64,000 bases of DNA from Radicibacter daui (lineage in GTDB: Bacteria; Pseudomonadota; Alphaproteobacteria; Radicibacterales; Radicibacteraceae), in assembly GCA_030657355.1 (NCBI GenBank), contig CP131056.1, positions 2,004,501 through 2,068,500 of the forward strand, given 5' to 3'. Made by a program: the position numbers and the translations under genes. Positions 26,884 through 28,377 of this stretch are shown piece by piece. Below the pieces are notes generated by a model. That model was not told the DNA's origin and did not search any database. It saw only the letters and a list, made by a program, of their open reading frames with translations. The first letter of the stretch is position 1. Each line of letters begins with the position of its first letter.

Positions 26884-27618
26884 ATGGAGTGGACGGATGA
26901 CGGCATCGTGCTGGCGACCCGCCCTTATGGCGAGGGCAAGGCTGTCGTCAGCCTGCTGACACAAAATGGCGGCCGCCATTCCGGGCTCATCCATGGCCGC
27001 TCCCGCCTTGGCGGCGCGGTGGAGCCCGGCACGCTGGTGAGGGCCACCTGGCGGGCCCGGCTTTCGGAACAGCTCGGCACTTTTGCGCTGGAAGCGCTGG
27101 CACCTTCGCCGGCGGTGCTGCTGCTCGACGATGCGCTGAGGCTTGGCCTGATCGCCAGCCTCTGTGCCGTTACCGATGCCGCCCTGCCGGAGCGCGAGCC
27201 GCACAAACCGCTCTTTGATGCCACGCAGGCCATGCTGGCGGTGCTGGACGCGCCACCGGAAGTCTGGGCGCCGGCCTATGTACGCTGGGAGGTTGGCCTG
27301 CTGGGAGAACTCGGCTTCGGCCTCGACCTCGACCGCTGCGCGGCAACCGGCGTCAATGACGGGCTGGCCTATGTTTCCCCGCGCACCGGCCGGGCGGTGT
27401 CCGCTTCTGCCGGCGAGCCTTACCGCGAGCGCATGCTGGTGCTGCCGCCTTTCCTGATCGGTCAGGGGCTCGGCAGCCTTGCCGAGGTGCTGGACGGGCT
27501 GACGCTCACCGGCCATTTCCTCGAACGCGTGGTGTTCCACGCCCTTCACAAGCCGGTGCCTGCAGCCCGCGAGCGTCTTATCACCCGGCTGGCAGCGGCG
27601 TTTACGCCTGCGGCCTGA
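26884..27618 (+). CDS. recO: DNA repair protein RecO
   Basis: RecO works with RecF and RecR to load RecA on SSB-coated gaps. The 244-residue product has the N-terminal OB-fold start MEWTDDGIVLATRPYGEGKA and GGRHSGLIHGRSR, followed by the helical domain with RWEVGLLGELGFGLDLDRCA. The four-cysteine zinc motif of some RecO proteins is not evident; only isolated cysteines are seen. Position after era is the usual order. The stop codon is immediately followed by palindromic repeat copy A. Confidence 0.92.
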   Translation: MEWTDDGIVLATRPYGEGKAVVSLLTQNGGRHSGLIHGRSRLGGAVEPGTLVRATWRARLSEQLGTFALEALAPSPAVLLLDDALRLGLIASLCAVTDAALPEREPHKPLFDATQAMLAVLDAPPEVWAPAYVRWEVGLLGELGFGLDLDRCAATGVNDGLAYVSPRTGRAVSASAGEPYRERMLVLPPFLIGQGLGSLAEVLDGLTLTGHFLERVVFHALHKPVPAARERLITRLAAAFTPAA

Positions 27619-27758
27619 ATCCTTCCCTACTTGTGGGGAAGGTGCTGCGAAGCAGCGGATGGGGGTAATGAGGAAAGGTTAGTCTGAGGCCTCAGCTTCG
27701 CGGCTCCCTCATTACCCCCTCCGGCCCTGCGGGCCACCTCCCCGAGTTGGGGAGGATT
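27619..27758. repeat. Palindromic repeat, copy A (140 bp)
   Basis: This imperfect palindrome has arms GGGGGTAATGAGG (27661-27673) and its exact complement (27707-27719). A central CTGAGGCCTCAG lies at 27684-27695. Small side stems at each end are CCTTCCC/GGGGAAGG and CCTCCCC/GGGGAGG, giving a cloverleaf-like layout. The outer ends ATCCTTCCC and GGGGAGGATT are near-complementary. About 90% of positions match copy B by eye. It begins one base after recO and could act as its transcription end. Confidence 0.88.
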
Positions 27759-27793
27759 GAAATGGGCGAGGATGTTGCCTTAATTTTCTCTCC

Positions 27794-28126
27794 ATGGTTT
27801 CGGAAATCACCCGGCGGTCGAGGTCGCTGCGCTCCGGTATGACGAATGCCGAGCAAGCGCTATGGCTGCGCTTGAAAGGGCGGCAATTGCTGGGGTTCAA
27901 GGTTCGTCGGCAGCTGCCTATTGGACCTTACATTGCTGATTTCTGCATCCCGGCTGCACATCTGATCATCGAATCTGACGGCGGTCAGCATACGGCCGAG
28001 GCGGATGCGCGCCGGACGATCTATCTCGAAAGCCAGGGCTGGCGGGTGCTGCGGTTCTGGAACAACGACACCCTCAGCAATATCGATGGTGTGCTGGCCG
28101 AGATAACGAGGGCGCTGAAGCCCTGA
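27794..28126 (+). CDS. DUF559 (Vsr/restriction endonuclease-like) protein
   Basis: The 110-residue protein is a DUF559 domain throughout: RLKGRQLLGFKVRRQLPIG, YIADFCIPAAHLIIESDGGQ with a following H, then RTIYLESQGWRVLRFWNND. The ADF, ESDGGQH and FWN motifs match the PD-(D/E)xK/Vsr-like nuclease fold assigned to this family, so metal-dependent nuclease activity is plausible but unproven. The N-terminus lacks a helix-turn-helix or other domain. No clear ribosome site precedes ATG 27794. The gene lies between two direct copies of a 140-bp palindromic repeat, with 35 and 7 bases between gene and repeats, which suggests that gene and repeats move together. Confidence 0.88.
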   Translation: MVSEITRRSRSLRSGMTNAEQALWLRLKGRQLLGFKVRRQLPIGPYIADFCIPAAHLIIESDGGQHTAEADARRTIYLESQGWRVLRFWNNDTLSNIDGVLAEITRALKP

Positions 28127-28133
28127 AACTTTC

Positions 28134-28272
28134 ATCCTTCCCTGCTTGCGGGGAAGGTACTGCGAAGCAGCGGATGGGGGTAATGAGGTGAGGTTGGTTT
28201 GAGGCCTCTGCTTTCTGGCTCACTCATTACCCCCTCCGGGCCTGCGGGCCACCTCCCCAAGAGGGGAGGATT
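28134..28272. repeat. Palindromic repeat, copy B (139 bp)
   Basis: This is a direct second copy of the 27619-27758 palindrome, in the same orientation, starting seven bases after the DUF559 stop. The GGGGGTAATGAG arm and CTCATTACCCCC arm, the GAGGCCTC centre and the terminal side stems are all kept, with about 15 differences from copy A, mostly in the loop around the centre. No other copy was seen in the window. Confidence 0.88.
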
Positions 28273-28377
28273 GTCTTGCGAGACCTGCCTGCATAACAGG
28301 TCAGGATTGCTGTCCATCTCCTTGTTGTGCCCGGGAACGGCTGCCACAGTGGCGGCTGTTTCGCCGGAGCCTTTTTC

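Follow-up and report, generated by a model that had tools for sequence, protein, structure and literature searches.

The closest described repeats are the G/C-rich intrastrand triplex motifs (TM, TMECO or PIT) of Holder et al. 2015, which were reported from more than 260 genomes, with 23 copies in Escherichia coli K-12 and with unusual variability around the copies (PMC4666352). No transposase or integrase remnants were found near these motifs, their origin was left unanswered and they were linked to genome instability, and triplex formation was shown in vitro only, for the E. coli motif (PMC4666352). The repeats studied here resemble them in that a hairpin is followed by a mirror purine tract, the position is intergenic, the copies are many and the loci are variable; the E. 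coli-type pattern itself adjoins ycjD and many DUF559 genes. The commonest form of the unit beside DUF559 genes, CCCTCTCCC-loop-GGGAGAGGG-spacer-GGGTGAGGG, is by its sequence the motif of Holder et al. (PMC4666352). The first-pass annotation of our locus had proposed an uncharacterised system made of a repeat and a DUF559 protein. This does not hold for the repeat, which is a variant of the described class, but it stands for the pairing: no paper joining DUF559 to repeats was found, in a search made mostly by title and abstract and with most subscription papers outside its reach. The repeat class is already known, and the DUF559 partner is the new element.

The REP/REPIN-RAYT systems also have a nuclease gene placed between inverted palindromes with a short tag and many gene-less copies in the genome. 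However, RAYT is an HUH tyrosine enzyme, like the Y1 transposases of IS200/IS605, whereas the DUF559 enzyme is of the PD-(D/E)XK type, and the REP tag is GTAG/CGTC beside a palindrome of 20-40 bp, whereas the tag of the DUF559 repeat is a mirror of the GGATGGGG or GGTGGGG type. The parallel with REP/RAYT drawn from the first inspection is therefore one of function (a flanked nuclease gene and a dispersed palindrome) without homology of enzyme or repeat, and the DUF559 system is not a member of REP/RAYT because the tests of enzyme and tag both fail. RIME1 of Rhizobium presumably shares the layout of the repeat of our locus (two successive hairpins and a GGATGAGGGG-like arm, followed by their inverse), a resemblance of plan and not of compared sequence. 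A RIME1-like form was seen in several DUF559 flanks, e.g. CCTTCTCCCC...GGATGAGGGG at locus L173. No enzyme is assigned to RIME or to the Bru-RS elements of Brucella in the papers found.

The fold and catalytic residues of DUF559 are common to Vsr, the EDxHD homing endonucleases (I-Bth0305I) and the YcjD-like family; DUF559 genes differ from Vsr and homing endonuclease genes in being flanked by repeats, with no intron or intein context and no dcm partner seen beside them. YcjD has been placed in the PD-(D/E)XK superfamily and linked to Vsr (PMC1189080). The Caulobacter DUF559 protein VsrA is needed for the DNA-damage response of a cytosine methyltransferase mutant, which was read as mismatch repair (PMC12907096); this role is compatible with cutting in vivo.

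The DUF559 locus of Radicibacter daui and its repeat family

The window, i.e. the whole stretch of 64,000 nucleotides of the R. daui genome that was analysed, contains a DUF559 gene between two direct copies of a palindrome. The features of the locus are as follows.

27619..27760, + strand: upstream palindrome (copy 1), 142 bp, two hairpin-plus-tag units face to face across a GAGGCCTC centre (DNA fold)
27621..27642, + strand: hairpin 1 of copy 1, CCTTCCC...GGGGAAGG, with GGGGAAGG as purine arm (DNA fold)
27644..27656, + strand: hairpin 2 of copy 1, GCTGCGAAGCAGC (DNA fold)
27657..27673, + strand: tag and central arm of copy 1, GGATGGGGGTAATGAGG, in which GGATGGGG mirrors GGGGAAGG with one position changed from A to T
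27707..27722, - strand: second tag and central arm of copy 1, CCTCATTACCCCCTCC, pairing with 27657-27673
27723..27755, - strand: hairpins 2' and 1' of copy 1, GGCCCTGCGGGCC and CCTCCCCGAGTTGGGGAGG (DNA fold)
27794..28126, + strand: DUF559 PD-(D/E)XK endonuclease-like gene, 110 aa (PF04480)
28134..28273, + strand: downstream palindrome (copy 2), direct orientation, 89% identity to copy 1
28171..28187, + strand: tag and central arm of copy 2, GCGGATGGGGGTAATGAG region (DNA fold)

Copy 1 begins immediately after the stop codon, at 27618, of a 244-aa ORF (recO in the first-pass annotation), and the gaps between the palindromes and the DUF559 gene are about 34 bases for copy 1 and 7 bases for copy 2. 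Alignment of the two copies gave 88-89% identity, close to the 90% or so that had been judged by eye, and the sequence contains everything that was described earlier: the arms, the centre GAGGCCTC and outer ends that are nearly complementary. The side stems at the palindrome ends were recovered as well: as single-stranded DNA, each copy is predicted to fold into a five-stem cloverleaf, in which a long central stem stands between hairpins 1 and 2 on one side and 2' and 1' on the other. The energies are -40.7 and -41.7 kcal/mol, with z-scores of -4.9 and -7.2, and shuffled sequences were never as stable.

Comparison of the window protein with the PF04480 profile confirmed the assignment of the 110 residues to DUF559 (123.2 bits against a curated cut-off of 20.6, E 5.6e-36). 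Alignment of DUF559 proteins showed that E20, Q40, D49, E60, D62 and R87 are invariant and H66 nearly so; these conserved residues form what is, from sequence and without nuclease activity data, a PD-(D/E)XK-type site. The AlphaFold model (pLDDT 91) matched best the DUF559 protein NGO0050 of Neisseria gonorrhoeae (3HRL), second best the catalytic domain of the homing endonuclease I-Bth0305I, and Vsr more weakly. Only PD-(D/E)XK families matched the window protein well, Y1 HUH transposases not being among them, and the defence (PADLOC) and phage (PHROGs) libraries gave weak partial matches only. The reading as a phage gene is spoken against by the finding of just three phage records with a relative. 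NGO0050 is the only DUF559 crystal structure found, and the DUF559 gene of N. gonorrhoeae (L188) is flanked by hairpin-tag repeats of degenerate form.

The window repeat gave 87 BLAST matches in the 5.06-Mb genome; 18 of these cover 106-142 of the 142 query bases and count as long, the others being partial. A lack of further copies would have refuted the proposal of a dispersed palindrome, and this refutation failed. This genome has exactly one DUF559 gene, and it lies between two long copies; copy 1 is 89% identical to copy 2 and at most 84% identical to any other long copy. With about 20 long copies and about 4,700 genes, we estimate at about 2e-5 the probability that a given gene is flanked on both sides by chance, and the two copies around the DUF559 gene are not a chance pair, because the repeat is a dispersed family.

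The genome copies printed out showed that the palindrome consists of two facing half-units, each with a purine-arm hairpin, a second hairpin and a tag. The purine arms are GGGGAAGG or GGGGAGG and the tags GGATGGGG or GGTGGGG/GGAGGGG. Among 44 distinct half-units, all 27 GGGGAAGG stems were found with GGAT-type tags and all 17 GGGGAGG stems with GGT/GGA-type tags, an agreement that is descriptive and does not represent 44 independent events, because the copies are related by descent. These units fulfil the criterion of TM/PIT motifs, a hairpin followed by the mirror of its own purine arm. The window family differs from these motifs in being longer and in having a second hairpin, and the literal E. 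coli-type TM pattern had no match in this genome; the pattern undercounts since the second hairpin lies between stem and tag. Rfam has no family for the window repeat. Long copies at 3160026-3160240 and 3051579-3051787 of the genome contig are followed by additional tandem half-units, with which they build up small mosaic clusters.

Repeat units beside DUF559 genes in other bacteria

We then examined 100 DUF559 loci of other Alphaproteobacteria, 40 loci from classes of the phylum other than this one and a set of 80 named GTDB loci. The flanks were scored by locally aligning 350 bp on the upstream side to the reverse-complemented 350 bp on the downstream side, control genes being taken from the same loci at a distance of at least 1 kb. 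The cut-off for an inverted repeat was a score of at least 22 throughout, and four thresholds tabulated on every set gave the same picture. Inverted repeats were found, set by set, around 70/101, 24/41 and 61/79 DUF559 genes, compared with 15/497, 4/104 and 3/155 controls. In the final recount, 155 of 219 DUF559 genes had them against 23 of 783 controls (Fisher 1e-102) and against 6 of 308 controls matched for size, of at most 200 aa (Fisher 7e-72). The first-pass annotation would have been refuted had DUF559 genes been flanked no more often than other genes, and these counts speak for it; its restriction of the link to Alphaproteobacteria was too narrow. The link is present there, but the 219 genes span α-, β- and γ-proteobacteria and other phyla, and the scope extends to Deinococcus, Cyanobacteria and Chloroflexi.

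Under more stringent criteria, which asked for a stem of 7 bp or longer, a purine 3' arm and a mirror tag, a unit was detected on at least one side of 160/219 DUF559 genes vs 18/783 controls, and on both sides of 86 vs none. Within 110 nt, the tag pointed towards the DUF559 gene in 219 cases and away from it in 33. Flank sequences varied widely between DUF559 families, and across families the tag tracked its own hairpin: the mirror score was 0.579 with the own hairpin vs 0.458 when shuffled (sd 0.009), while the excess was smaller in the direct mode (0.480 vs 0.449) and almost nil in the complement mode. In the plasmid-collection loci, units were seen in Deinococcus, Picosynechococcus, Sinorhizobium pSymB and N. 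gonorrhoeae, and also downstream of E. coli ycjD; in enterobacteria they lie mainly downstream only of the DUF559 gene. No inverted pair was detectable for about 29% of the DUF559 genes, many of which are domains inside larger proteins. The presence of the gene is patchy and multi-copy, with up to eight per genome. Inside a genome, the pairing of gene subtype with repeat subtype was only moderate, the own partner being best in 39/62 cases (p 0.008; Mantel r 0.26, p 0.002).

The A/T-richer families may share the hairpin-tag design, because DUF559 genes of two small low-G+C genomes (L201 and L229) and of Picosynechococcus (L192) adjoin local repeats that are built in this way (CCCCTCTTTGCTAAAGAGGGG; CCCCCGATTCGGGGGCTAGGGGGC).

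DUF559 and the TM pattern were both searched in one set of 397 Pseudomonadota genomes. DUF559 was present in 69/84 genomes with at least five TMs vs 57/313 others (odds ratio 21, p 1e-27, without phylogenetic correction, the genomes not being phylogenetically independent). Genomes with DUF559 held 3,439 of the 3,879 TM copies, and the reversed control pattern was almost absent from the same genomes. The same split was seen again inside single genera and families. Within genus g316, TM numbers were 49, 73, 11 and 23 in genomes with DUF559 and 58, 88, 1 and seven zeros in those without; within family f172, they were 14, 189, 78, 5 and 92 with DUF559 and mostly zero without (exceptions 34 and 92); within family f166, they were 11, 32, 7 and 10 with DUF559 and mostly zero without (exceptions 8 and 1). 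Counterexamples were the 15 of 84 genomes with at least five TMs in which DUF559 was not found at E 1e-15 and the 57 DUF559-positive genomes with fewer than five copies of the pattern. One DUF559-negative genome with 92 TMs (G505) retains a broken DUF559 end beside a TM, disrupted by other sequence, at the site where its congeners carry the gene (locus L417); as read from this relic, it is a case of recent gene loss in which the repeats have stayed.

Presence and absence at orthologous junctions

Empty and occupied sites were read at two junctions of other genera; the order to which the window belongs offered no second genome for the recO-AEC junction. The first is the junction between 4-hydroxyphenylpyruvate dioxygenase and homogentisate dioxygenase (genes assigned from sequence) in a Xanthomonas-like genus (g419) of 35 species, 28 of them readable on both sides. 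Most species have a 440-bp element, AAGCCCCTCTCCC-loop-GGGAGAGGGG-TTGGGGTGAGGGTACGG...DUF559...CCGTACCCTCACCCCAA-CCCCTCTCCC-loop-GGGAGAGGGGCTT, and in seven species DUF559 is absent and exactly one fused hairpin, AAGCCCCTCTCCC-loop-GGGAGAGGGGCTT, is left. The empty state corresponds to six changes on the tree of the flanks, i.e. at least six independent precise changes, and losses are the likelier direction because Pseudoxanthomonas has a DUF559 gene at the same junction. A simple deletion between two near-identical hairpins could give the same product. Vertical descent of the gene at this junction had only moderate support (Mantel r 0.41, little below the 0.46 that permutations reached at most). 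In this genus, the association of TM number with the intact DUF559 gene was not significant when genomes with a pseudogene were counted as negative (p 0.09), but it was significant when the negatives were limited to genomes that lack the gene or keep just a tiny fragment of it (p 0.002).

The second junction was read in an alphaproteobacterial genus (g61) of 65 species, in full in 28. The outer branches mostly have a clean intergenic gap of 39-52 bp, with no hairpin in many of the empty alleles; two species have a DUF559 element and three have gene-less hairpin inserts, at least two of which share the TTTCATGTTCCTCTCCCC-type end of the DUF559 element. Here gain is the likelier direction. Terminal inverted repeats are common to DUF559-bearing and gene-less copies, as in a DNA transposon with its MITEs. 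Inspection by eye of L391, L398, L404 and the window, short of a systematic search, revealed no target-site duplication. At L404, a gene-less TM insert with the end of the DUF559 element splits another palindromic repeat, GAGCGCGGGCCTCCGGCCCGCTC, which is unsplit in the related L389. In L387, L388, L394, L396, L397, L399 and L400, a palindromic repeat of another, unrelated kind (CCTTCGAGACGCA...) is present at the junction, as if this intergenic site were an insertion hot spot.

The ycjD site of E. coli was rejected as a clean empty site, because presence and absence there are an alternation with the eef efflux operon: sapF-fabI (L198:5408-5761; L240-L242, L245) holds either ycjD, a DUF559 gene, with TM motifs or the eef operon (PMC12817139). 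The queried sapF-ycjD-fabI region was mostly present, including ycjD, in 3362/5426 E. coli genomes.

A proposed two-part system and its alternatives

What we observed is the flanking and its orientation, the match of stem and tag, the co-occurrence across genomes, a complete set of catalytic residues and, at two loci, precise presence and absence. These data suggest that DUF559 is the long-missing partner of one of the commonest bacterial repeat types. With some confidence, short of firm, we favour the reading that DUF559 and the hairpin-mirror-tag repeats (of TM/PIT type, with the long two-hairpin variant at our locus) form a two-part selfish or mobile system with a repeat-recognising nuclease. 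The DUF559 protein would recognise the repeat, most likely in an extruded state (hairpin, cruciform or intrastrand triplex), and would cut or nick at it; repair or strand transfer would then copy or remove the unit-gene-inverted unit array and, far more often, its gene-less versions. The solo palindromes would be non-autonomous derivatives and the DUF559-bearing copy autonomous. That recognition requires an extruded structure is an inference, and a probable one because the hairpin-mirror relation, and not the sequence, is conserved between families. Binding, cutting and moving of the repeat by DUF559 are likewise inferred, no such event having been seen, and the repeat-spreading or repeat-cutting activity proposed at first is not proven, although the insertion and precise-loss data fit it. 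DUF559 is probably the mover of these repeats: a cognate nuclease that moves or converts them is the simplest account of the oriented two-sided units, the gene-less copies with the same ends, the co-occurrence and the precise gain and loss.

The alternative that survives best, which we nevertheless consider unlikely, is that DUF559 is a homing-type parasite: the enzyme would cut the unoccupied solo hairpin, repair of the double-strand break would copy the gene into it, and the repeats would be targets that spread by other means. The second rank of I-Bth0305I among the fold matches agrees with this, as do the single near-perfect hairpin of the Xanthomonas-type empty allele, split by the element, and the position of the gene between two units with the tags inwards in most families. 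However, many empty alleles of the second junction are clean stretches of 39-52 bp without any hairpin, and repeat-rich genomes would not be expected to be rich in DUF559 unless the gene drives the repeats. Insertion into its own cleavage site in a conserved gene, an intron or an intein, which would mark a homing endonuclease gene, was not seen either, all inspected DUF559 sites being intergenic.

Less likely still is a domesticated host function, in which a Vsr-like repair or structure-specific nuclease resolves hairpins or triplexes and is retained where repeats abound. The tie of Caulobacter VsrA to DNA damage in cells without the cytosine methyltransferase (PMC12907096) would suit such a role, as would the fact that one junction holds the gene in most g419 species, as in Pseudoxanthomonas, but a host need explains neither the oriented units on both sides of the gene nor its patchy, multi-copy presence and repeated precise loss.

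We give little credence to the idea that DUF559 is a passive passenger, a small mobile gene landing or being insulated in hairpins that are terminators or insertion-tolerant intergenic DNA. The hairpins are indeed G/C-rich and intergenic, and IS elements insert in palindromic repeats. Against this, equally small genes from these loci lack such flanks, the unit carries a mirror tag that a terminator hairpin would not have, and DUF559 and TMs co-occur strongly across genomes. TM motifs also lacked terminator activity in earlier work, as far as its citation in PMC4666352 conveys. Chance and terminator-only readings are rejected because control genes in the same loci are rarely flanked (23/783 and 6/308 vs 155/219). 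An artefact of composition in high-G+C genomes, where G/C-rich units and more hairpins are to be expected, is refuted almost beyond doubt by controls drawn from the same loci, by the near absence of the reversed pattern from the same genomes and by the related units of low-G+C lineages.

The two-part system may go further and constitute a separate mobile or gene-drive class, in which a lone 110-residue PD-(D/E)XK nuclease would recognise hairpin or intrastrand-triplex ends, mobilise the unit that encodes it as well as thousands of copies without the gene, and be the source of TM/PIT and RIME-like repeats in proteobacteria, cyanobacteria, Deinococcus and Chloroflexi; we hold this only tentatively, at a little less than even confidence. 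We know of no transposition system to which either the DUF559 fold or the end structure belongs, and to our knowledge the PD-(D/E)XK fold is not known to move DNA on its own.

DUF559 is thus a candidate enzyme for the TM/PIT repeats, whose origin has been unexplained and becomes directly testable because the protein is very small and conserved, has a solved structure (3HRL) and is encoded in E. coli K-12 by ycjD. If our reading is true, a second, independent lifestyle of nuclease plus dispersed palindrome would exist besides REP/RAYT, and a large family that is still labelled as of unknown function would have a role.
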